Shown in pieces: positions 120 through 20,599 of a stretch of 21,874 nt of DNA; positions within the stretch are counted from its first letter, which is position 1; each line of letters opens with the position of its first letter. Origin of the DNA: a virus; IMG/VR virus record IMGVR_UViG_3300050138_000011, positions 1-21,874 of that record; one strand, given 5' to 3'. Made by a program: the position numbers and the translations under genes. The notes below the pieces were generated by a model. The model made no database searches. It was not told where the DNA came from and was given only the letters and a program-made list of their open reading frames with translations.

Positions 120-197
120 TCACAGCCGGCGTTGACGGCATGTCAGGCCAAGAGCGACAAGCGATGCGGCGATTTTCCTAAACATGTTCATTTCCAT
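120..197 (-). CDS. Short secretory-like ORF, 25 aa (possible signal-peptide remnant)
   Basis: Starting at ATG 197, which overlaps the previous TAA (TAATG), the frame encodes MEMNMFRKIAASLVALGLTC and ends in a basic RQRRL before TGA 122-120. The section MFRKIAASLVALG resembles the first residues of the beta-helix protein just upstream (MFKHLASIAAFCLASG). The hydrophobic part then breaks off without a mature region. It may be a remnant of another signal-bearing protein, a tiny membrane peptide, or chance. It fills the space before the next gene. Too short for composition tests. Confidence 0.35.
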   Translation of the reverse strand: MEMNMFRKIAASLVALGLTCRQRRL

Positions 198-1936
198 TAG
201 CAGTGCGTAACCAATCCAGCGGTGATAGTCAGCGTCGTCAGCGATACCGTGTTGGCGGAACAGTTCACGCCCGATGCTCCGTTGACTTCAAGCACGCCGG
301 TTCCGGCTGTAATCAAGTTGATCGAGATGTTCGGCCCGGCGCCGAACGCTGTGATCGTGACCGGCCCAGTGGACGATCCACCGAAACCAACGTTGTTCGC
401 ACTGCCCAGAACATTCACAGCGCCAGCGACAGCCAAATTGCCGAATATCTTGAACGCGCCGCCACTCACATTCTGCGGTTGCACCGTGATCGTGTCGCTC
501 CCCGGAACCAAATTGTCAGCGGCCCCGATCGTCGATCCGAGCCAATTGTTGAGGATCTGGGTGCCGGACCCTGCGGTGCCGTTGAGGGCATACGCCATGG
601 TCTGCGTGCCCTGGTCGTCATAAATGAAGTTGCCATCGAGTAGAATGTTCGTGGCGCCTTGGTCCTCTATCCCCACGCCCAGGGTGTATCCTTGGCCTTC
701 GTCCCATATGGCGTTGCCAAGGAGCTGTGCCTTTGACACGGTGCTGGCAAGAAATACGCCCGTCGCACCCGCTGTGCCATTTCCGTCGCCGCTGATCTGA
801 TTGATGCTGACGAGTAGGACTGAGACATTCTGCGCATTGACTCCACCCTCGCCCGCGTGGTTGCCTTGATTGTTGCCGGAAATCCGATTTCCGGTTATCG
901 AAATCGCATAGTGAGCCGCCGAAGCGCCGATCCCGTTGGCGATATCGACGCCGCTGAACCCATTCCCGGTAAGTTGGTTATTCGAAATGATAATGTCGTG
1001 CGACGCAGAAGGCTGCCCGGCATCATTGAGCACGCTGACGCCAGCCGCCATGTTGTCAGTTATGGTGGAGTTGCTGATGCCACAGTGATTCGTGCCGCCG
1101 TAGAAAGCATATCCCTCGTCGTTGATCCCGCTCACGGTGATGTTGTTGGCCCAGCAATCCGACGAGTTGACTGAGAACCCGACCGAGTTGCCCGAGTTGC
1201 TGAATACCGCGTTGTTGACCCATGCGTGCGTCGTATTCGTAGGGCCGAACGGTGTGTTTCGGAAGTCGGTTGAGGTCAATCCGCTCCACCAGAAATAGGT
1301 CAGAGTTCCGATGTTACCGAATCCACCGGAGAAGCCGCCGGTCTGAGCGGTGGCATTCCCGTCCAGCGTGCCCGCACCTTCAACCACGAGATTGGTTGAG
1401 TCCGCTGCCCCGACGAGCATGTCGCCATTGGTCGCCGCGATCAGCTTAAGCGTGCCGTCTATCACCAGATACGTGTGCGAGGGAAGCGACAGGGTGCCGA
1501 CCATGCAGACGACGCCGGGAGGCACATAGACGCGAGCTTTTGCCGCGCCACTGGTAAGCGCCGACTGGATTGCCGTGGTGTCAGAGGTCGATCCATCACA
1601 CTTGGCGCCAACGTCCACGACGTTGATGACGTTGCTCGCGACATTCAGCACGCCACCGGCAATGGACACACCCGCGCCCGGCGTGATCGTAACAAGGCTC
1701 GTGCCATTGCCACCCAGAAGGGGTGCATTCGGAACGGGAAGGCCGCCCGCCACCGCCTGTCCGTTGTTGTAGATACCTGCGCAGCCGTTGACGGTGCCAG
1801 GACCCATTGGAGCGCACGCGCCGGCTGTGATTCCCGTGCCGCCCAGAACGACAGCGTTCTGATCTGTCACTGGGGCAGCCGCCGCAATTCCGGAAGCAAG
1901 GCAGAATGCGGCGATCGATGCGAGGTGTTTGAACAC
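197..1936 (-). CDS. Right-handed beta-helix (tailspike-like) protein with signal peptide
   Basis: A GTG start at 1936, with AGAGG five bases upstream just after the previous stop, gives 579 residues. The N-terminus MFKHLASIAAFCLASGIAAA is a typical Sec signal peptide, probably cut near residue 21. After a Gly-rich lead, residues 106-145 read VVDVGAKCDGSTSDTTAIQS and VYVPPGVV, the hallmark entry of pectate-lyase-like tailspikes. Beta-helix coils run from about 150 to 480 (TITDNMAAGVSVLND, IIISNNQLTGNGFSGVDIAN, ISITGNRISGNNQGN). The C-terminus with SLTTLTITAGLVTHC is of the type seen at fibre ends of alphaproteobacterial phages. It likely binds or cuts a host polysaccharide. The stop TAA overlaps a short ORF start. 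Confidence 0.78.
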   Translation of the reverse strand: MFKHLASIAAFCLASGIAAAAPVTDQNAVVLGGTGITAGACAPMGPGTVNGCAGIYNNGQAVAGGLPVPNAPLLGGNGTSLVTITPGAGVSIAGGVLNVASNVINVVDVGAKCDGSTSDTTAIQSALTSGAAKARVYVPPGVVCMVGTLSLPSHTYLVIDGTLKLIAATNGDMLVGAADSTNLVVEGAGTLDGNATAQTGGFSGGFGNIGTLTYFWWSGLTSTDFRNTPFGPTNTTHAWVNNAVFSNSGNSVGFSVNSSDCWANNITVSGINDEGYAFYGGTNHCGISNSTITDNMAAGVSVLNDAGQPSASHDIIISNNQLTGNGFSGVDIANGIGASAAHYAISITGNRISGNNQGNHAGEGGVNAQNVSVLLVSINQISGDGNGTAGATGVFLASTVSKAQLLGNAIWDEGQGYTLGVGIEDQGATNILLDGNFIYDDQGTQTMAYALNGTAGSGTQILNNWLGSTIGAADNLVPGSDTITVQPQNVSGGAFKIFGNLAVAGAVNVLGSANNVGFGGSSTGPVTITAFGAGPNISINLITAGTGVLEVNGASGVNCSANTVSLTTLTITAGLVTHC

Positions 1937-1944
1937 GCGAGCCT

Positions 1945-2622
1945 CTATACGCCCGGCACCACGGCGCCGCTCTGCGATACAGACAGAACAACGGCTTGGG
2001 TGTTGACCAATTCAATCGATGTATTGGCAGCCTGATTAATGAAACTATCGCCGGTATACAGATAGACCAAGACAGACAAACCGGAGAAATTTGCGATTGG
2101 CACCTTGGCACCGTTCCATTTCTCCGCCGGGACCGCGATCATGATGCCCGCGCTCGCTGCCGACGCCGAGTTGATCAGGATGTTCGCGAGGAACGGAACG
2201 ATCGCTGCCGTCTGCTGCGTCGATCCGGTTGCTCCCACGCTGTATGGCTGGAGGTTCGTGACGACCTGCGGATATGGGAACGGGAATGGCATGGGGTTTT
2301 CTCCGATCGGCGAGAGCGGGCCGATGCCGCTTTGGACGTAGACGATCGAATCTCCCGCCACGGTCACAGCCGCGATCGACGAGGCATACCCCTGTTGCAG
2401 CAGGACGGATTGCCCCGGCATGATCGGAAGCGATGCCAGCGTGGCAAACACCCAGATGCCGCCCAGCGCCACATAGACCGTCGATGGACCGAGGTTAAGG
2501 ACCAAAAGCGACATGGAGGCGCCAGAGGCCGGCAGGTCCGCGCTCGACGATACCGGCGTCGCCTGGATCGATGTCAGACCGCATGGCACGAACCCAATCG
2601 GCGTGATGGGGTAGGAGTCCAT
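1945..2622 (-). CDS. Two-domain tail-fibre accessory protein
   Basis: The start ATG 2622 overlaps the fibre stop as TGATG; a GTG at 2634 is possible but less likely. The 225-residue protein has two domains. Residues 1-100 form a small beta domain with SMSLLVLNLGPSTVYVALGG, PIMPGQSVLLQQGYASSIAA and DSIVYVQSGIG, a pattern common in phage fibre-associated proteins. After a linker PLSPIGENP, residues 111-225 form a second domain beginning MPFPFPYPQVVTNLQPYSVG, matching the start of the gene at the left edge (21 of 32 residues). A possible internal start precedes Met111. The second domain ends SVSQSGAVVPGV. A role in fibre folding or tip decoration is inferred from place. Confidence 0.68.
   Translation of the reverse strand: MDSYPITPIGFVPCGLTSIQATPVSSSADLPASGASMSLLVLNLGPSTVYVALGGIWVFATLASLPIMPGQSVLLQQGYASSIAAVTVAGDSIVYVQSGIGPLSPIGENPMPFPFPYPQVVTNLQPYSVGATGSTQQTAAIVPFLANILINSASAASAGIMIAVPAEKWNGAKVPIANFSGLSVLVYLYTGDSFINQAANTSIELVNTQAVVLSVSQSGAVVPGV
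2204..2313 (-). repeat. Duplicated segment, copy 1 (start of accessory second domain)
   Basis: About 110 bases around the internal start are related in DNA to bases 1-115, sharing runs such as CCGTCTGCTGCGTCG and GAGGTTCG on the plus strand and GATCGGAG in the start region on the minus strand. Protein identity over the first 32 residues is 21 of 32. Confidence 0.7.
2290..2305 (-). promoter_or_regulatory. Probable internal translation start within the fibre-accessory gene
   Basis: GGAG lies eight bases before ATG 2292 (Met111 of the accessory protein). The stretch GAAAACCCCATG also forms the start region of the 66-aa gene at 19953. The paralogue at the left edge begins at the equivalent Met with GATCGGAG in the same place. 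An internal start would yield a separate 115-residue second domain. Confidence 0.5.
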
Positions 2623-3638
2623 CAATGTCCCCACGCTGTTATCGTGACGCCCAAAGTTGCCCCGCTTAGGAAATTACCGGTAACGTTTACTTCCGAAGCA
2701 TTTACTCGAGCAACGGCGATGCTTCCTGGATTAGAAGAACCTGGAGGCGTTGTGCCGCCGAAGCAGATCGACACACCTAGACATGCCGTCGCAAAGGCAA
2801 CCGGCAAAGTCACTGCGGTTGTAGACAAGCCTGCCCCGACAACTATAGCAGTCTCAAACACCTGCGTCTTGAATCCCCCAGGTAGCGTGTAGGAAAAGTC
2901 ACCCGCGATACCAGCAAGAACCCCTATGGTAAGAAGGTCAGGCGAACAAGATATGACACGCCAGTTTGTCCCGTCGGATTGGACAGACAAGAAAGAGTTT
3001 GTTCCGGTCGGCGAAATCGATGTTCCGGTCAGACCGCCGCCGACAAACCCTCCACCAGATGCTGCAATTGAGGAAGTGTCGCTGGTGCCGAATAGGAACC
3101 CAACCGGCATACCTGAGACGCTAGCCGCAGTCGGAAGGGTGACGGTGATTCCGTTTCCGACATCAATATATTGGCCCCAGTTGGCCGCTGTCAGTGTCGT
3201 GTTGCCGCTGAGAAAAGGACCGAGCCGCGCCGCCAGACCAAGCGGGAATATCTGCCAGTTCGCCCCGCCCGTGTCCGGGTCGGATGTATTGTTGTCCGCC
3301 GTCGAAAGCCATTGGAGCGGGAAGGTCGCCGATGAAATTACGGCGCCCTTTGGGTATCCGCCGATCGCGGTCGAGAAAGTCGCATCGTAGCCGATCGGGC
3401 CGCCGGCTTGCAGCCATTGGCTCCACAGCGTGGCGTAAAGGCCAAGCCCGTTGAAGTCCGCAATGTTCGGAGGAAGGCCGCCGGAGCCAGTCGGCGCGGC
3501 CGTGATCGGCGGGAAGCCAAGCTGCTGCGATGCGTTTCCGCCGCTAGCCGTCGCTGGGATGGTGTCATTGACATATCCAGAGGTCGCGTCCGTCGCCCAT
3601 GGCGTCGCGAACTTGTATGGAATTGAGCTCGCCAGCAT
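2622..3638 (-). CDS. Tail fibre protein with gp53-like C-terminal receptor-binding domain
   Basis: This 338-residue protein starts MLASSIPYKFATPWATDATS and has the N-terminal anchor common in fibres of small contractile phages: GGLPPNIADFNGLGLYATLW, WLQAGGPIGYDATFSTAIGG and PLQWLSTADNNTSDPDTGG, then WQIFPLG. The middle part (about 145-240) is a Thr/Ser/Gly-rich beta shaft with SFLSVQSDGTNWRVIS. The last 80 residues resemble the gp53-like fibre C-terminal domain: GGFKTQVFETAIVVGAGLS, VTLPVAFATACLGVSICFGG, and the final VTITAWGH. This tip would contact the host surface. Position after DUF2612 is as expected. The stop overlaps the next ATG (TGATG). Confidence 0.84.
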   Translation of the reverse strand: MLASSIPYKFATPWATDATSGYVNDTIPATASGGNASQQLGFPPITAAPTGSGGLPPNIADFNGLGLYATLWSQWLQAGGPIGYDATFSTAIGGYPKGAVISSATFPLQWLSTADNNTSDPDTGGANWQIFPLGLAARLGPFLSGNTTLTAANWGQYIDVGNGITVTLPTAASVSGMPVGFLFGTSDTSSIAASGGGFVGGGLTGTSISPTGTNSFLSVQSDGTNWRVISCSPDLLTIGVLAGIAGDFSYTLPGGFKTQVFETAIVVGAGLSTTAVTLPVAFATACLGVSICFGGTTPPGSSNPGSIAVARVNASEVNVTGNFLSGATLGVTITAWGH

Positions 3639-4223: not shown

Positions 4224-5644
4224 GAGCCGGTCGTCACATTGATGTCCGCGCCCGCGAGCGTCGGCATCTGATCGCTCTGCACCGTCAGGTCCGCGCTGGC
4301 CGCCGCGACCGCGTTCATCGTGACAGACGATACGGTCTGGTTCACGGCGACGGTCCACGAGCTGCCAGCCCCGGCGGTAATGATCGTTCCGCTCGCCACC
4401 GTATCAGGGCCGCCAACGGCATACACGAACTGGCCGATCGCGATCGTTCCAGTGACGCCGGAAACCGTGAGCGTGACGCCAGCTATCGAGCCAGTGAACG
4501 CCGCCGCTGGCGAGTTGAGCGCCTGCCCGATGGTGATCGATACGACCTGGCAGCCGGCGAATGCTGAGGCCGCCGCCGCCGCATAGTTGAGCGCGAAGAT
4601 TTCGGACCCGATGCCAGGTCGAATCGGGCCGTTTACCATCTCGCCCAAGAATGCCGTCACGATTGCCGCCTGAATCAGAACGGCGGCATTCGACGGAACT
4701 AGGCTTGAACTCTTGATTACCACGTTCATACAGATTGCGTCATTCGTCGCCACATCGTAATTGATCGTGTAGGACGGATAGGGCGGCGAATAGCCGGAAT
4801 TGGAATCATAGACCGTAACGGCGGTCCCGCCCTGCGTCGCACAGCCTGGATTGAGTTTTGACCATATGGCTTGACCGATCGCCTGCGCCGCGCCGCCCGC
4901 CACACAGACATAGAGCGCATTCGCAGCGACGGTCACGCCGTTGATCGTGGCCGGGCTCGCGGTGTTGTTCGAGTAGACGAAGGTCGAGATCACATCAGGC
5001 ACCGCCAGGATGGCGCCACGGATCGTCGGCGGGAACCCGGCACCATTGGCCGCGACCGATGCCCCGCGCCGCGCCTCGAATGCCGCCCGCGTCTCGACCG
5101 CATTGCCGACCACGCCGGATACGAGCGTCGCGGATGACCAGCCCAATATGCTCTGAGCAATCTGCACTGATGCTGGCACCGCAAGTGGGCCTGGATTGAC
5201 TGCGGCGAATGAGAGCGTGATCGATCCAGAGATGGGGATGACCCCAGACCCGGTGCAGAGATAGAGGTTCTGCGGGTCGGACACCACCGCGCCAATCGGT
5301 ATTGGCACGTTAACGAGGCCGCTGCACGCCACCTGGAGGACGGTCGATTGCGCTGGAAGCCGGGTCATGAAGTAAATTCGCCCGATACCATCCTGTTGCC
5401 GGCCGTAGGAAAAGGCAGGGTCCATGCCGTTGAATAGCGTGACCTGCTGGCCTTGTGAATCGCCAAGGATAGCCGACTCGCTGGTCACGAGCTGGCCCTG
5501 TGGTGTCTTGGCGTTCGGGTTGAGATTGCCACCAAATGCCGCGTTGAAGTCCGCCGTGGCGCCTGCCACAAGGGCGCTCTGCGGCGGGGCAATCCAGCCC
5601 GTGGGTGTGATCGTGATTGGTGGAACGCTGGTCTGGCCGCTCAT
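4220..5644 (-). CDS. Baseplate wedge protein, gpJ/gp47-like
   Basis: This 474-residue protein begins MSGQTSVPPITITPTGWIAP, then LVAGATADFNAAFGGNLNPN, with TPQGQLVTSESAILGDSQGQ and YGRQQDGIGRIYFMTRLPAQ, the standard N-terminal pattern of baseplate J-like proteins. Further segments are VETRAAFEARRGASVAANG and FPPTIRGAILAVPDVISTF. They build the peripheral baseplate wedge. Residues about 386-447 carry an extra beta-type module (VTLTVSGVTGTIAIGQFVYA to SGTIITAGAG) that resembles modules in the sheath and neck domain of this phage. The final segment ends VTTGS. It starts at the overlap with the 90-aa cargo gene and stops at ATGA into the DUF2612 gene. Confidence 0.85.
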   Translation of the reverse strand: MSGQTSVPPITITPTGWIAPPQSALVAGATADFNAAFGGNLNPNAKTPQGQLVTSESAILGDSQGQQVTLFNGMDPAFSYGRQQDGIGRIYFMTRLPAQSTVLQVACSGLVNVPIPIGAVVSDPQNLYLCTGSGVIPISGSITLSFAAVNPGPLAVPASVQIAQSILGWSSATLVSGVVGNAVETRAAFEARRGASVAANGAGFPPTIRGAILAVPDVISTFVYSNNTASPATINGVTVAANALYVCVAGGAAQAIGQAIWSKLNPGCATQGGTAVTVYDSNSGYSPPYPSYTINYDVATNDAICMNVVIKSSSLVPSNAAVLIQAAIVTAFLGEMVNGPIRPGIGSEIFALNYAAAAASAFAGCQVVSITIGQALNSPAAAFTGSIAGVTLTVSGVTGTIAIGQFVYAVGGPDTVASGTIITAGAGSSWTVAVNQTVSSVTMNAVAAASADLTVQSDQMPTLAGADINVTTGS

Positions 5645-6991: not shown

Positions 6992-8121
6992 GGCACTGAC
7001 GGAACCCCAGGCACCCGAACGCATGAGACCTCAGTAAACCACGGGCCGCCGGGAAGCTCGCTTGAAAGCTCGTGCGTAAGGCCGTTCTCCGCGACATACC
7101 AGAGGCCGTTTGGTCCACCGCTCTGGGTAGTTGCGGGCGCGACATAATCGACATCGATCACTGGGCTCGCCGCCGTGCCGCTGATTGCCGTGGTTGCCTT
7201 CACTGGCGGATTGGCATTGCTGGCGGTTGCAGCAGCGCCCACGCTCGATTGCATCTGGATTTGGCCGCCGACTCGGATGTTCGGGTTGTAGAGCGTGGTA
7301 AATGACATGCCGTTGGACTGGTATTTCGGGTATCCAATCAACCCGGAGGCTGCGGAAATCAGTGGAATCTGCCCGATGCGTGTGCCCGACTTCGGCCAGA
7401 TCGCCAGCGTGTTCGGCGTGGTGCCGCTGTCAATATACATCTCAATATTAGCGTCTCTGGCCAATTGATCTGCTTGATGTCGCGCGCTACCAGGATAATA
7501 TCCGTTTGATATTTTTGCTTGCACGCCGTTGTTCTCAAATTTCATTCCCATCGTGAGGGCAAGCCCAGACATGATCTGCGCAACATCGGCCGTGCCGGGA
7601 TAGCTCGTCGGCGGAACCGGTCGGATCGCGCCCTCATAGCCGACAAACGAAATGATTTGCAGGGCGGTTTCCGGCGCCTCGCTGAAGTCCTGCCAGCATC
7701 GATTCAGGTAGCCGTGAAACACGACGGACGGCGCGGTGCCGCCCTCACTGGCCGAAAGTGTTACAAGATTGCCAAGGCGCGCTCCGACGAAGAAAATGCC
7801 CAGCGTCGAGACCGCATTCATTACGCTCGGCTGGACGCCATAGATGCGGATTTCCGCACTGTCGAAAGCGGGCGATGCTGACTTTGTGACCGTGGCTTTG
7901 ATGCGCAGATTGCTCAGCGTGACGATGCTCGCTCCGGTGTTGCCAAACGTGCCCTTTCCCAAGGAAATCGTTACGGTTAACTGCTTCTTGGTGTAGGACG
8001 AACCGGACGGCGCGGTCATTGGGATGCTTGTCGTTTGCGCTGGAGTCGGCGGCGCAGGCGGCGTGGCTCCGCTCCCAAACTGGTCATTGAAAGCATCCGA
8101 GAATGGGTCGTAACCGGACAT
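6988..8121 (-). CDS. Baseplate hub protein (gp27/gpD-like)
   Basis: This 377-residue protein begins MSGYDPFSDAFNDQFGSGAT, a charged and Pro-rich lead, then a beta-rich hub body: KQLTVTISLGKGTFGNTG, RIYGVQPSVMNAVSTLG, FVGARLGNLVTLSASEGG, and VVFHGYLNRCWQDFSEAPET. The later part, IGYPKYQSNGMSFTTLYNP and IRVGGQIQM, is typical of hub proteins that present a central ring for the spike. The place before the spike gene and after the plug supports this. The chain ends in a Pro/Gly-rich tail (GPWFTEVSCVRVPGVPSVP). The stop overlaps the spike start (ATGA, 6991-6988). Confidence 0.8.
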   Translation of the reverse strand: MSGYDPFSDAFNDQFGSGATPPAPPTPAQTTSIPMTAPSGSSYTKKQLTVTISLGKGTFGNTGASIVTLSNLRIKATVTKSASPAFDSAEIRIYGVQPSVMNAVSTLGIFFVGARLGNLVTLSASEGGTAPSVVFHGYLNRCWQDFSEAPETALQIISFVGYEGAIRPVPPTSYPGTADVAQIMSGLALTMGMKFENNGVQAKISNGYYPGSARHQADQLARDANIEMYIDSGTTPNTLAIWPKSGTRIGQIPLISAASGLIGYPKYQSNGMSFTTLYNPNIRVGGQIQMQSSVGAAATASNANPPVKATTAISGTAASPVIDVDYVAPATTQSGGPNGLWYVAENGLTHELSSELPGGPWFTEVSCVRVPGVPSVP

Positions 8122-10025
8122 CAGTTAAAAACGCCATAAAGGCTGCACGCCCCATCCGTTATGGTGCCGCTGGAAAACTGCACCCGTATGCCAGTGATTG
8201 GCAGAACGCCAGGAGACCCAACCAAGGCCGATGCGCCGCTACCGCCCGTGAACACTGGCGTTCCTGCGTCGTTGAGGCCACCGGTCTGCCACATGAAGCT
8301 TTTGTAAGCCACACCGCTGTGTTGTTCCAACTTTCCTATGAAATATAGATCGCCAGATATCCCACTCGACCACGTTACCCCGAGAAGTCCCATACCTGCG
8401 TCCGTGGTCGAGGCGTATCCGGTCGGCGTGGCAGATGCGGCTGTGCTGTAAAGCCCCGAATTTTGGTACCCGGATGTGGCATAAGTCGGCCCGCTGCTTG
8501 TGCCGAGTTGGACGGAAAAGCTGTCTCCAGCCACAGACGACATCATATGGGTGCAATGGATTTCCAATTCAGACCATGGGTAAGCCGTCAATGTAAACGC
8601 CATGCTAGCTTGGCCTGCCGCACCAATCGTTTGCAAGAGCGTGAGAGCACCAAGAGTCTGACCTGTTATGGTTTTTGTCAGGCCATTCGGTCCCGGCCAA
8701 CTGACCGTGTTGTTCGTTCCAGCATCGGTGTATGTCGGCGACGGGAACCCAGCCAGCCCGGTATAGTCAGAATTCCCCAGCACATAGTTTTCGACCGTGC
8801 TAGCATCAAGATATACGTCGGTCGCCGTGCTAAAAGTGTTGCCGTGCACAAAGTTTCCGCCGCTCGCTCCGGTGATTAAGACGCCCGTTCCGGTGATGTT
8901 GCTCCCGTTCTGCTCGACCTTGTTGCCAAAAACATTCGCATTGGCCGAGGCATTCAACAAAAATCCTTCTCCGCCAGCAGCGCGACCTAATGCAATATGG
9001 TTGCCGTAAAGCCACGCATTGGCGACGGTGTTCAGGTAAGCGCCAGAAATAACCACGTCTAACTCAGAGTCGTGAATGTAGTAAGACACACCAGCTAGAT
9101 TTCCCTTCAATGCGTCTGGACCATTGGTTATTTCCAATCCATAGTTGCAATTAACTACAACCATATCTGCATCTATGAATTCCCCATACGCAGACTGCGC
9201 TATAGCTGCGTCAGCTAAATAGGAAATCAACCTATGCACGAACAAGCTGTATGTGCTCTGAAGCTCTATTGCATATACCCCAGAAACCGGAAGATTGGCC
9301 GATGTCGCCGGGCCGGTGAATGTCACGTGATCAGCTTGAGAAAACCACGCTCCATTGAGTCTGATGCCGCCAAGGTAGGAGTTTGGATAAGGTGAAGCCA
9401 CGATCGAGAGCGATGAATATATCGCGATGTCATCGGCTGAGAAATTCTGCGCTGGATAGGAAGAGACCGCAGGCCAACTTACGTCGATCGCCCGAGTTGT
9501 TCCACTCGTCGCCGTGCTGGAAAATCCGAGTCCACTGATCTGAACCGTCTGACTGATGGCGGTCTGTGTGATCTGAATCGGCTCCGCTGACGTGCTTGCC
9601 GTGATGATCGTGGATTTCGATCCATCGCCTATAATCGCGATGTTCTTTCCCGCGCACGCAGTCGCAGTGCCATCGAACAGCCAATTTCCGGTCGGCATAT
9701 AAACCGTGTTGACGGCGCCCGTAGCTGCGGCACATGTGGCATTAAGTGCTTCTGTGCCAAGCGCCATCGTTCCATAGCTCAAGACATTGTAGAAGTTAGG
9801 ACCACTCGTAACTACGGGAGCGATAGGGAATACTGAGCAAACAAAGTTTCGTATTGTCTGTGGAGTAATGTCCTTGTTAGGGACATTATCTGAGAAACTA
9901 CTGAGTAGCTGTCCTTTTGTTTGCAGACTGCACGATGTCTGCGCCCTGGCCGAGATCGGAACCAGGAACGCCGTGATCAGAAGAGCGAGCCAAAGCAGTA
10001 TCTTTGTCACCTGACGACCCATCAT
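8121..10025 (-). CDS. Right-handed beta-helix (tailspike/depolymerase-like) protein with Sec signal peptide
   Basis: This 634-residue protein opens with a clear Sec signal peptide: MMGRQVTK, a hydrophobic core LLWLALLITAFLV, and a cleavage site after SARA at residue 28. Residues about 75-140 (NFYNVLSYGTMALG to VYMPTGNWLFDGT) have the pectate-lyase-like entry segment, and about 140-430 give beta-helix coils, with YIHDSELDVVISGAY and ANVFGNKVEQNGSNITG. A C-terminal beta-sandwich region follows from 450, ending in GACSLYGVFN. Such folds bind and sometimes cleave host polysaccharide. The gene lies between plug and hub genes and its middle DNA is low in GC (43 percent over 9061-9240), suggesting transfer. 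A phage tail protein should not need export, so secretion or misassigned signal are both open. Confidence 0.78.
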   Translation of the reverse strand: MMGRQVTKILLWLALLITAFLVPISARAQTSCSLQTKGQLLSSFSDNVPNKDITPQTIRNFVCSVFPIAPVVTSGPNFYNVLSYGTMALGTEALNATCAAATGAVNTVYMPTGNWLFDGTATACAGKNIAIIGDGSKSTIITASTSAEPIQITQTAISQTVQISGLGFSSTATSGTTRAIDVSWPAVSSYPAQNFSADDIAIYSSLSIVASPYPNSYLGGIRLNGAWFSQADHVTFTGPATSANLPVSGVYAIELQSTYSLFVHRLISYLADAAIAQSAYGEFIDADMVVVNCNYGLEITNGPDALKGNLAGVSYYIHDSELDVVISGAYLNTVANAWLYGNHIALGRAAGGEGFLLNASANANVFGNKVEQNGSNITGTGVLITGASGGNFVHGNTFSTATDVYLDASTVENYVLGNSDYTGLAGFPSPTYTDAGTNNTVSWPGPNGLTKTITGQTLGALTLLQTIGAAGQASMAFTLTAYPWSELEIHCTHMMSSVAGDSFSVQLGTSSGPTYATSGYQNSGLYSTAASATPTGYASTTDAGMGLLGVTWSSGISGDLYFIGKLEQHSGVAYKSFMWQTGGLNDAGTPVFTGGSGASALVGSPGVLPITGIRVQFSSGTITDGACSLYGVFN

Positions 10026-16771: not shown

Positions 16772-17539
16772 CTACGGATTGGCCTGGACGGACCTTACAC
16801 TGACTGCGAGATGGTCCGCAAATTGCATTGTCGTGGTTACGGTGATGTTGGCCTGAAGGCAGAGATCGATCGACCACCGCTCTTCGACCTGTTGCTCGGC
16901 GTTGTCGAAAGCGATCTGCCGGGGATCGGACGTGTAGAGCGGCGCCATCAGAGCGGAATTCGCCATGAATGCGTTGACGCCGAACTCGTCGCGCCAGAGT
17001 GTCGAGATGCGCGTCGCGTTGTCGGCGCTCGCCGGCCCATGCACATCAGCCTGAATCGTGACCTCGGTTTTCTGCGTCGATTGCTGCATGCCGACATAGA
17101 GCGTCTGCATCGGCACGGAAGCGGTCGGCGTGGTCTGATAGGTGCCGATGCCACCGGGCGCGCCTGTGATCTGGCGCATGATCTGACATCCGGCTGTGAC
17201 ACCAAGGCCATAGACCGGTTGGCCGACGATCGCCGATCCAAGCAGGACAGCAGCAAGATCAAGCACGTTATCGACGATCGATCCTGTCACCTGGCTATCG
17301 GTGGTGGCATCGATGTTGGTGGCGAGCCGATCGCGCATCAGCGGCCAGAGGACAATGAAATCGGGCTGGCCTGGCTCGGGGACGCGGTTGACCTGACCAC
17401 GGATGATGGGGACCGTCTGGCCTGGCACCGAGGATGTAAGCCCGAACGTATTGAGGACCGCGACGATGCAGGTAAAAATCCGCGTCTCGGTTGGGGCTAT
17501 CTGCGTGAACCGCTGGGGCGGATTGGGCGCGTCGCTCAG
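16772..17539 (-). CDS. Alternative model: separate neck/tail-terminator protein from CTG start, 255 aa
   Basis: If the neck terminator is translated on its own, the likely start is CTG 17539, giving a 255-residue protein of normal size for the family. AGGA sits six bases upstream (AGGAAACAAGCTGAGC) and the TGA ending another frame at 17536 overlaps it, mimicking the ATGA junctions used elsewhere here. The first residues LSDAPNPPQRFTQIAPTE look like a native N-terminus with the Leu codon in place of Met. The stop TAG at 16774-16772 lies inside the ribosome binding site of the sheath gene. CTG starts are rare, so either this is a true weak start, a mutated ATG, or the domain is made only as part of the fusion. 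Confidence 0.5.
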   Translation of the reverse strand: MSDAPNPPQRFTQIAPTETRIFTCIVAVLNTFGLTSSVPGQTVPIIRGQVNRVPEPGQPDFIVLWPLMRDRLATNIDATTDSQVTGSIVDNVLDLAAVLLGSAIVGQPVYGLGVTAGCQIMRQITGAPGGIGTYQTTPTASVPMQTLYVGMQQSTQKTEVTIQADVHGPASADNATRISTLWRDEFGVNAFMANSALMAPLYTSDPRQIAFDNAEQQVEERWSIDLCLQANITVTTTMQFADHLAVSVRSVQANP

Positions 17540-19138
17540 CTTGTTTCCTGATCCCGGGCGTCGAGGAGCGCGAGCGTGGCATGGCTTGGAGAGGAGCGCG
17601 GAGAGGAAGGTCGGGACCCCGCTAAGGGAATAGGTGTCGGCGCTCGAAGCCTGGTCCGACAGCGCCGCGAAGAAGTGTGCCGACAGCAACGCTGTGTCGG
17701 CGCTCGCCACCGTGTCGGACAGCGTGATAACGGACGTACCCCAAAGCGCTTCCGAGGTCGCCGCCGATTCACTCAGGCCAACGAAGAAGGCGCCATGGCT
17801 GCCAATCGCCTCGGACGTTACCACCACGTCCGCCATGGCGACCGCGAACGATCCCGCCGCAATCAGCGATACCGACAGCGTTTCCGATGTGGCGGCCGTA
17901 TCGGCCGTGCTGGGCGCCGCGATCATCGACCACGCGCTTGCGTCCGACGATGCGGCGGTATCAGACCCGGATGCCGCGGCCAACATAGCCGCCGCCGAAG
18001 CGTCCGACGATGCGGCGGTATCGCTCAATGCCGCCGCGATCAGCATCGACACCGACAGCGTTTCCGTTGTCACGCCGGTATCAGCCCCGGCGACGGCGAC
18101 CCGCATCGCGGCAGTCTGCGCGTCGGAGCTCGCGGCCGTTTCACTGACCGAAGCCGCGACCGTCATCGCGGCCGTCAATGTGTCGGACGATGCCGCCGTG
18201 TCCGCAAGGCTGGCCGAATATGCCCCCGACCCAATAGTGCCGGTTATGACGATTATGCCCTGCGCGCCGTTCGCGCCGGTGGCCGTGTAGGAGGTGCTGC
18301 CAGCGCCGCCGCCGTATAATCCCCCGGTGCCTCCGCTCCCGGAGGCGGAAGTAACACTGGACCCACCGCCGCCACCGCCCGACCCTGCCGTTGTCCATTC
18401 GGTGCCCGGGCCGCCGGCAGCGCCCCCGAACTCTGTGGAGTCGCCGCCACCGCCACCACCACCGGCCGTGCCAGCAACGGCGTAAGCGGTGCCATCATTT
18501 GCGCCTGCCCCGCCGCCTGCGCCAAGATAGTTATTCCCGCCCGCGGCACCATTGCCATTAGCGGTGGCAGAGGCGTTGTTGCCTGCTGACCCCCCCCCCC
18601 CCCCCCCACCGCCACCGCCGCCGCCAGTATAAGTCGCGGAGCCAAGACCCCCTGCGCCGCCGTTCCCAAACGGGCCTCCCGCACCACCACCGCCCGTAGG
18701 ACCCGCCGCGGCGGAACCGCCAGAATATGTGGTCGCTCCTACCCCGCTGGCCGCGGCTCCGCCCGCTGCCCCGGTGTCAGCTACCTGCCCGCCGCCGCCC
18801 CCCTTGGCCCCGGATACAACGCCCGAAGATGTTATTACGGTAGCAGTGTTGTTCAGCGCAATCCAGCTATCCCCGCCGGTTCCGCCGTTGTCTCCCTCAG
18901 CGGCACCACCCACACCGCCCGCGCCGATACTGTAGTTACAGATCGTGCCGGGTGTAACGCTGATGGATCCACTGTTCGAGTATGCGCCGCCGCCGCCGGC
19001 ACCACCCCAATAATATGTGACGTTGCTGTCCGCTGCCCCACCACCACCACCGATCACCTCGAAGGTGGCCGAGGCCCAGCCGCTCGGGATGGTGTAAGTG
19101 CCGGCGCCTGTCGCAGTAATGAATACGACAGTGCTCAT
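16772..19138 (-). CDS. Glycine-rich adhesin-like domain + 20-aa repeats + neck/tail-terminator domain in one frame
   Basis: This is an uninterrupted 788-codon frame with three parts. Residues 1-300: a start typical of glycine-rich phage tip proteins (TYTIPSGWASATFEVIGGGG), then Gly-rich blocks compatible with a polyglycine-II adhesin fold. Residues about 305-507: ten degenerate 20-residue repeats around SDTAASSDT. Residues 534-788: a domain resembling LIC_12616/gp12-like phage neck terminators, beginning LSDAPNPPQRFTQIAPTET and containing VPIIRGQVNRVPEPGQPDF, LATNID and YTSDPRQIAFDNAEQQ. The terminator is normally a separate gene and completes the tail end. At the joint (17539) a CTG lies six bases after AGGA, and a TGA in another frame overlaps it, so this may be two coupled genes with a frame disturbance. 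RBS for 19138 is weak (GGTGA). Confidence 0.75.
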   Translation of the reverse strand: MSTVVFITATGAGTYTIPSGWASATFEVIGGGGGAADSNVTYYWGGAGGGGAYSNSGSISVTPGTICNYSIGAGGVGGAAEGDNGGTGGDSWIALNNTATVITSSGVVSGAKGGGGGQVADTGAAGGAAASGVGATTYSGGSAAAGPTGGGGAGGPFGNGGAGGLGSATYTGGGGGGGGGGGGSAGNNASATANGNGAAGGNNYLGAGGGAGANDGTAYAVAGTAGGGGGGGDSTEFGGAAGGPGTEWTTAGSGGGGGGSSVTSASGSGGTGGLYGGGAGSTSYTATGANGAQGIIVITGTIGSGAYSASLADTAASSDTLTAAMTVAASVSETAASSDAQTAAMRVAVAGADTGVTTETLSVSMLIAAALSDTAASSDASAAAMLAAASGSDTAASSDASAWSMIAAPSTADTAATSETLSVSLIAAGSFAVAMADVVVTSEAIGSHGAFFVGLSESAATSEALWGTSVITLSDTVASADTALLSAHFFAALSDQASSADTYSLSGVPTFLSALLSKPCHARAPRRPGSGNKLSDAPNPPQRFTQIAPTETRIFTCIVAVLNTFGLTSSVPGQTVPIIRGQVNRVPEPGQPDFIVLWPLMRDRLATNIDATTDSQVTGSIVDNVLDLAAVLLGSAIVGQPVYGLGVTAGCQIMRQITGAPGGIGTYQTTPTASVPMQTLYVGMQQSTQKTEVTIQADVHGPASADNATRISTLWRDEFGVNAFMANSALMAPLYTSDPRQIAFDNAEQQVEERWSIDLCLQANITVTTTMQFADHLAVSVRSVQANP
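17536..17556 (-). promoter_or_regulatory. Internal Shine-Dalgarno with CTG start and overlapping TGA at the adhesin/neck joint
   Basis: The sequence AGGAAACAAGCTGAGCGAC has AGGA six bases before CTG 17539. CTG opens the neck-terminator domain. TGA at 17538-17536 terminates a different frame, whose last residues are LALLDARDQETS. The overlap is of the same kind as the ATGA junctions elsewhere in this operon. Confidence 0.5.
17610..18229 (-). repeat. Ten degenerate 60-bp (20-residue) tandem repeats
   Basis: Inside the large frame, units of mostly 20 residues share the core SDTAASSDT (for example ASLADTAASSDTLTAAM, ALSDTAASSDASAAAM, GSDTAASSDASAWSM, ALSDQASSADTYSLSG). The first six are exactly 20 residues long and later ones vary from 18 to 24. 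In DNA, GCGTCCGACGATGCGGCGG recurs 60 bases apart near 17939 and 17999. The repeats form a probable shaft between the glycine-rich and neck domains. Confidence 0.85.
18590..18607 (-). repeat. Homopolymer of 18 G (minus strand) inside the glycine-rich coding region
   Basis: Eighteen consecutive C on the plus strand give exactly six GGG glycine codons in the glycine-rich domain. The neighbouring glycines use mixed GGC and GGT codons, so the pure run is not needed for the protein. Any change of one or two bases would shift the frame into early stops (about 18253 or 18141) before the repeats and neck domain. Sequencing or assembly error in the length is also possible. Confidence 0.9.
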
Positions 19139-19177
19139 ATCAAGTCACCCGGAACTAAAATGATCGCCATCCGCCTG

Positions 19178-19756
19178 TTAGGTCAATGTCGCGGTATAGC
19201 TCGCGGTGATCGTGTTGCCGGAGACCACCGGCTGCGCGGTCGCCAGCGTCCCTGCGTTGAACAGCGTGCCGCCGGTGTTGGCGACGGTTGCGCTCGCCCC
19301 CGACCCAACCACGAGGAACAGCCCTTGGACCGTGCCGGAGTTGGTGAACACAAACGACAGCGCCGCCGATAGCGCCTTCGCCCCGGCCGAAGCCGAAGAC
19401 CATGCACAGGTCGGGCGCGTCGTGCCATAGGCCGGCGCGTTGCTGCTGTCAGCCTCAAGCCAGCCGGAATGCGACGCCATGGTATCGGACGCCGACACCG
19501 CGCTGAAGCTGGCGCTCGAAATCAGGCCCATGTAGTCGGCCGCGGTGTAGGATGATCCGGCCAAGCCTTGGTCGAGTAGGAAATTCTTGCCGAGCGTCGT
19601 CAGCAGATTGGGGACGTTTTCGGACCACAGCGTATTGCCGTCAGCGTCATGGCACTCGACCGCGAACATGCCAGAGGTCCGCACGGCGTCCCCGGACAAG
19701 GCGCCGGCCGTCATTCCGGCAGCGAGCGCGTCGCCGGTTCCAATGCGATCGTTCAT
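19178..19756 (-). CDS. Phage virion-associated protein, 192 aa (unknown function)
   Basis: The start is ATG 19756, with AAGGAA five bases upstream and a four-base overlap with the previous stop; an upstream in-frame Met is less likely. The 192-residue protein begins MNDRIGTGDALAAGMTAG and has the line SGMFAVECHDADGNTLWSEN followed by VPNLLTTLGKNFLLDQGLA. The rest is a Ser/Ala/Thr-rich beta-type region ending in a strand with ITASYTATLT. Proteins of this look (a line of the type VECxDxxGxxxW.ExVxNLxTxxGxN) occur in many phage late operons next to fibre genes. I recognise the pattern but know no assigned role. The following gene is the glycine-rich adhesin-like frame, so a fibre or decoration function is possible. 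Confidence 0.65.
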   Translation of the reverse strand: MNDRIGTGDALAAGMTAGALSGDAVRTSGMFAVECHDADGNTLWSENVPNLLTTLGKNFLLDQGLAGSSYTAADYMGLISSASFSAVSASDTMASHSGWLEADSSNAPAYGTTRPTCAWSSASAGAKALSAALSFVFTNSGTVQGLFLVVGSGASATVANTGGTLFNAGTLATAQPVVSGNTITASYTATLT

Positions 19757-19953
19757 CGTGAGTTCCTTGTTACAACGCCGGCCGGGTTGCTGCACGGCAG
19801 CGCCGCGAGCAGCGTGCCGCTGGACACCGTGATGTCCGGTGACACCGGCTGCGTGCCGCTGTAGATGCAGAGGTAGGCCGCGGTCGAGAGATCGGTGTTG
19901 ATCTGGCTAGCACGTTGGTTCTTCGTCAGCGCCGGAAAGTTGAGATAGGCCAT
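19753..19953 (-). CDS. Short, apparently C-terminally truncated structural protein, 66 aa
   Basis: The start is ATG 19953, not the longer Arg/His-rich upstream frame, because AGGA sits seven bases before it and the protein begins cleanly with MAYLNFPALTKNQRASQ. Up to residue about 62 (SGTLLAALPCSNPAGVV) it looks like the N-terminal half of a phage structural protein. It then ends abruptly in TRNSR, read out of the ribosome binding site of the next gene, and its TGA overlaps that gene's ATG (ATGA, 19756-19753). I recall relatives being about twice as long, which suggests a deletion of the 3-prime half, but this was not checked. The tail could also be native. Confidence 0.55.
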   Translation of the reverse strand: MAYLNFPALTKNQRASQINTDLSTAAYLCIYSGTQPVSPDITVSSGTLLAALPCSNPAGVVTRNSR

Positions 19954-20017
19954 GGGGTTTTCCTGTGAGGTTTTGGCGTAGATTAGATGCTCGTGACGAT
20001 CGCGCCGCTGCCCGACA

Positions 20018-20203
20018 TCAATGGCTCGGCGCGGATTCATCCGCTTTCGGTGTGCTCTTCGCGGCCGTCTTGGCCTTCGTCAAAGCGTCGAGCCACTCAT
20101 AGGCTGGCACCATGAGATGCGATACCAGCATGCCATTTTGGAGCGCCAGCCTGATGCGCGTTTCACCCATCCCGTCGAGAGTCTGCTGCGTCGCCTCGTC
20201 CAT
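20018..20203 (-). CDS. Small hypothetical phage protein, 61 aa
   Basis: This is a short ORF with a strong ribosome binding site: GGAGG lies seven bases before ATG 20203 and overlaps the end of the preceding gene. The protein starts MDEATQQTLDGMGETRIRLA, has a predicted amphipathic helix around VPAYEWLDALTKAKTAA, and ends in a Lys/Ser/Pro-rich tail. It has no signal peptide or membrane segment. Small helical proteins here are common in late operons, but I cannot assign a function. About 64 bases without a gene follow it. Confidence 0.6.
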   Translation of the reverse strand: MDEATQQTLDGMGETRIRLALQNGMLVSHLMVPAYEWLDALTKAKTAAKSTPKADESAPSH

Positions 20204-20206
20204 CGA

Positions 20207-20599
20207 TCAGCCTCCGTTTTGCAGCGTGATCGCCACCGAACACCAGTCCGGCCAGTGCTCAAGCACCTGCGATACGAGCCACGTCGTGGGTCCTGGAAAG
20301 CCCGGCGCGGTCCCCATCGTGATCAGATCGCCGCCCTTGATCGCCTGCCGGTCAAGCCCCTCGACGTTCCCGTTCATGTAGACCTTCCGCCGCGTGCCCT
20401 CGATATTGAGGCCGCCCAACTTTTGGAGATCGGTATAGGTGAGCGCCTGAACCTGGATCGGGACAGATTCGATGACCCGATAGTTCGGCGTGCGCGTGCC
20501 GTCCGGCTGCGTGTTGTAGCCGGTGGACACCCGCCACTCACTGAGCACCAGCGGATTGATGGCGCCGATCGCCCCGGATACGACTTGGTGTAGATTCAC
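20207..20599 (-). CDS. Putative head-tail joining/neck protein
   Basis: This 130-residue protein was not firmly recognised. It reads as a compact globular protein: MNLHQVVSGAIGAINPL at the start, then WRVSTGYNTQPDGTRTPNYR, VPIQVQALTYTDLQKLGGL, and RKVYMNGNVEGLDRQ before a closing WLVSQVLEHWPDWCSVAITLQ. The last part resembles stand-alone phage proteins found between connector and sheath genes, of the kind annotated as head-tail joining or gp-unknown neck proteins. It begins at the ATGA overlap with the gene before and ends four bases before the next ATG. The role is inferred from size and place only. Confidence 0.55.
   Translation of the reverse strand: MNLHQVVSGAIGAINPLVLSEWRVSTGYNTQPDGTRTPNYRVIESVPIQVQALTYTDLQKLGGLNIEGTRRKVYMNGNVEGLDRQAIKGGDLITMGTAPGFPGPTTWLVSQVLEHWPDWCSVAITLQNGG

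Follow-up and report, generated by a model that had tools for sequence, protein, structure and literature searches.

The window analysed here, a single assembled metagenomic virus contig of 21,874 bases from IMG/VR rather than an isolate, contains a run of eighteen guanines (G18) inside the coding sequence of a glycine-rich gene. The tract is present in the sequence record, and we tentatively attribute its uniformity to homogenisation of mixed GGN codons rather than to the evolution of a switch. A preliminary description of this DNA had proposed the latter; its account of the tract, of the reading frame and of a probable internal start for the neighbouring gene was supported by the analysis, while the on/off or host-range switch built upon them did not.

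Table 1. Coordinates of the G18 tract and of the features that surround it in the window.
Feature	Position	Strand	Remarks
Neck/tail terminator gene	16772..17539	(-)	PF23961; probable own start CTG 17539, AGGA upstream
Upstream gene 3' end	17540..17600	(-)	frame +1 TGA (17536-17538) overlaps CTG
Ala/Ser/Asp-rich imperfect repeats, 3' of glycine-rich domain	17600..18238	(-)	
Glycine-rich domain, residues 1-300 of accessory ORF	18239..19138	(-)	PF21722 Gly_rich_2 match below cut-off
G18 tract	18590..18607	(-)	codons 178-183, six GGG, second half of 12-glycine run
Accessory gene preceding glycine-rich gene	19178..19795	(-)	phrog_8123; 182 relatives in other viral contigs
Small accessory ORF	19753..20040	(-)	phrog_3758 virion structural protein
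Head protein	20207..20599	(-)	phrog_1912; directly or nearly directly before terminator in relatives

On the coding strand the tract occupies nucleotides 532-549 of the open reading frame 16772-19138(-), and on the plus strand it is C18. It sits exactly in frame and encodes six glycines, as had been claimed, with GGC GGC GGC GGT GGC GGT on its 5' side and TCA GCA on its 3' side; the glycine runs that neighbour it likewise use mixed codons, in agreement with the earlier account. The run is also rare: it is the sole homopolymer of at least 7 bases in the window, where ten-G matches number 9 against 0.12 expected from dinucleotide shuffles (9 or more were reached in 0 of 100 shuffles). GGG makes up 17% of the glycine codons outside the tract in this ORF (23/133) and 17% in the other genes, and redrawing the glycine codons yielded a run of at least 18 in 10 of 20,000 trials with the gene's own usage and in 6 of 20,000 with that of the other genes. 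Since these simulations so rarely reach it, G18 exceeds chance synonymous codon choice. If a poly-G tract is taken as a coding-sequence run of at least 7 bases in which a change of length shifts the frame, G18 is such a tract: at -1 or +2 the protein ends at 294-295 aa (stop near 18253), and at +1 or -2 it ends at 192-193 aa (stop near 18558).

The explanation that we tentatively prefer begins with a polyglycine stretch in a putative glycine-rich accessory virion protein, whose gene would be an insertion between those for a head protein and the neck terminator. Its GGC, GGT and GGG codons would have become uniform G when G was over-called or the consensus collapsed during assembly of short metagenomic reads, and because homogenisation of this kind preserves length, the frame would be preserved as well. 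Two-colour Illumina machines both over-call G and miscall T as G in NT[TG] contexts (PMC13218037), which would bear on the tract if such a machine produced the reads behind the window. A run that is improbable by codon choice and yet exactly six codons long is what homogenisation would leave, and this length, together with the glycine-codon context, makes us lean slightly towards it. Other findings weigh against it: the T residues directly before the tract (GGT GGC GGT) were not converted to G; the tract lies ~3.3 kb from the contig end, and neither codon usage nor the Gly_rich_2 match is interrupted there; and long G tracts that differ in length (G15 and G16, in the pair L240 and L253 described below) exist in the collection. 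We read the site as ordinary polyglycine coding within a glycine-rich accessory protein, the uniformity of G18 being perhaps artefactual.

Long G tracts elsewhere in viral contigs bear on this choice. At least 120 viral contigs carry G18 or longer, and in 92 of the contigs listed every tract of this length lies no more than 200 bases from an end of the sequence available, as would be expected if poly-G read artefacts had produced them. Three GGH codons followed by at least 12 G were found in only 22 viral contigs, and few of these cases fall in a glycine-rich ORF that is credible. One of them, L239, has a G14 (5275-5288) inside a PF21722 phage gene and is 99.96% identical over 5,523 bases to L259, from another metagenome, with two mismatches and no gap. 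Both mismatches are a C within the G14 (GGTGGGGGGGGGGGGGGTGG versus GGTGGGGGCGGGGGCGGTGG), and the tract reads GGGGGCGGGGGCGG in L259. That the two differences in 5.5 kb both fall inside 14 bases points to systematic error; the change is a substitution at constant length, not slippage, pointing to homogenisation during base calling or assembly, in one sister pair of which either member may be the correct one and in which the L259 sequence ends ~220 bases past the tract. By analogy with this pair, the same process may have acted at G18. L125, L150 and L154 also carry C tracts paired with G tracts in clusters (C20 beside G23, and similar), with flanks that are partly conserved (86% alike between L125 and L150); these paired tracts are unlike terminal poly-G artefacts.

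It is quite possible, if less probable than homogenisation, that G18 is real and grew by slippage within a glycine run, with the gain or loss of one or two glycines being tolerated and serving no adaptive role; off-frame variants would then arise constantly and be lost or complemented. Repeat growth would yield a tract far above synonymous expectation, as G18 is, and differences of the slippage type, biological or technical, also occur in the collection: L240 and L253 show no difference in 5,747 bases apart from G15 versus G16. The poly-G of this pair (L240:2502-2516 and L253:3231-3246) separates an AGGAGG from the start codon (ATG) of a small ORF, where a tract of spacer length could affect translation initiation, or the difference may be technical. 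If real, G18 would indeed be slip-prone, as the earlier account held: for poly-G tracts of C. jejuni the published rate at G13 reaches 0.004 deletions per division (PMC8224891), and at rates like these a burst of ~7 doublings would leave ~3% of tracts altered. Against passive growth stand the dominance of deletions in the long tracts of C. jejuni, where lengths above 13 are rare (PMC8224891), and the pure G14 of L239, which its sister contig contradicts.

The glycine-rich gene has as neighbours a tail-completion/Neck1 protein, a head protein, a virion structural protein and a protein without assigned function, with DUF3383 and gp32-like proteins further downstream; we infer that its product is a virion protein. 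Its PF21722 Gly_rich_2 match is contiguous across the tract (residues 8-213; E=0.0022 for the whole ORF, 0.0005 for the domain alone) and scores 20.6 bits, short of the curated cut-off of 24.3. Searches for relatives of the Ala/Ser/Asp-rich repeats found none, nor were close relatives of the glycine-rich gene itself found, and G18 occurs in no relative examined. A flank-pattern scan for sister contigs of the window, which demanded at least 9 G and so would have missed shorter tracts, also found none in a collection that may leave out near-identical records. The glycine-rich protein has no sequence match among solved PDB chains, and a single-sequence structure model of residues 1-505 was uninformative (pLDDT 32). 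With the family match below cut-off and the model uninformative, the adhesin function suggested in the preliminary description is only a guess.

The block that holds this gene (17540-20206) looks like an insertion in the window's virus. In relatives with both genes the terminator gene follows the head protein gene directly or after a gap of <800 bases, with no glycine-rich gene between, so the accessory block is extra in the window's virus. Some relatives of the accessory gene at 19178-19795 have other glycine-rich ORFs next to them; nine such ORFs contain glycine runs of 5-10, with G runs never above 6, which counts in favour of homogenisation at G18. The same accessory gene, searched in bacterial genomes, gave a single weak match in a Microbacteriaceae MAG, which does not identify the host. 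Elsewhere in the window, the large proteins encoded at 197-1936 and 8121-10025 have N-termini that resemble signal peptides; the former matches the tail-spike family phrog_2234 and the latter has no PHROGs match.

Downstream of the glycine-rich part, the long ORF (788 aa) runs stop-free through the repeats into the terminator, and its C-terminal 256 aa match PF23961 (Phage_tail_terminator_9) at 56.3 bits, above the cut-off of 27. In all 10 of the relatives examined closely the terminator stands as a gene apart and starts at an ATG of its own, which often overlaps the upstream stop by 1-4 bases (ATGA). At the equivalent point the window reads ...GATCAGGAAACAAG CTGAGC..., with the CTG at 17539 and AGGA just upstream. 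Because the relatives have a separate ATG gene and the window has CTGA and AGGA here, CTG 17539 probably serves as an independent start codon for the terminator, in line with the internal start that had been proposed. Codon usage follows frame 0 throughout the glycine-rich part, shifts weakly to frame +1 at ~17590-17545 and returns to frame 0 in the terminator, the shift being a weak signal in windows of ~16 codons. This usage suggests that the upstream gene ends in frame +1, as ...HATLALLDARDQETS with TGA at 17536-17538 (within 17530-17620), in which case a one-base indel or error near 17600 may be concealed within the 788-aa ORF. Read most simply, the terminator is a gene of its own that starts at CTG (or at ATG, should that base be wrong), and the gene upstream of it has its last codons in another frame, the long joined ORF being a coincidence or the result of one indel near 17600. 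A covalent fusion of the glycine-rich part and the terminator as the functional form was set aside, as relatives never have the fusion. No terminator was found in the bacterial genomes searched, and phage GenBank records gave weak matches to the terminator only, with no DNA match.

We consider it unlikely that slippage switches the glycine-rich protein on and off and alters adsorption, with the CTG start keeping the terminator expressed throughout. Such a switch would fit the truncation of the protein at 192-295 aa by off-by-one tract lengths, the plausible insulation of the terminator, and the poly-G phase variation that is known, according to papers citing Sorensen 2021, for receptor-binding proteins of Campylobacter phages (PMC10579305, PMC10877375). 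However, neither the tract nor the long joined ORF is present in any relative examined; the gene lies among head and neck genes, apart from the tail-fibre and spike-like genes at 197-3638; the adhesin role is conjectural; the window holds no second tract of at least 7; and the sister contig of L239 contradicts the comparable poly-G there, by substitutions instead of slippage. The host-range switch of the preliminary description is thus unsupported, and we regard as improbable the specific arrangement of an uncultured phage whose phase-variable virion gene is controlled by G18 and is followed directly by an essential neck gene insulated by its CTG. That assembly fused two unrelated sequences through poly-G into a chimera, an idea brought to mind by the many G18 tracts at contig ends in the collection, is very improbable and was set aside, as the reading frame, codon usage and glycine-rich domain are the same and continuous on both sides of the tract.

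If G18 is real and variable, phase variation through poly-G would extend to virion genes of phages other than those of Campylobacter. At present its chief value is as a warning: a long G run within a glycine-rich gene of a metagenomic contig can be an artefact of the substitution type, and because such artefacts keep the frame, an in-frame position is not evidence of biology. The tail fibre adhesin of Salmonella phage S16 has a polyglycine-rich domain. Both it and the window's protein are glycine-rich phage proteins, but the latter matches no solved chain, and its gene lies in the neck region, apart from those of the tail fibres. Phage PF21722 Gly_rich_2 proteins share with the window's protein a glycine-rich domain at the N-terminus that contains long runs of glycine; they have mixed codons, whereas the window has an uninterrupted G18, a score below the cut-off and trailing Ala/Ser/Asp-rich repeats without relatives. 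The hypermutable poly-G tracts of Campylobacter phages (Fletchervirus), as conveyed by papers that cite the original study (Sorensen et al., 2021, Cell Rep 35:109214), resemble the window in placing a G homopolymer in virion-type coding sequence where off-by-one changes alter the product; there variation is reported, whereas the window is one contig with one tract in a putative virion gene.
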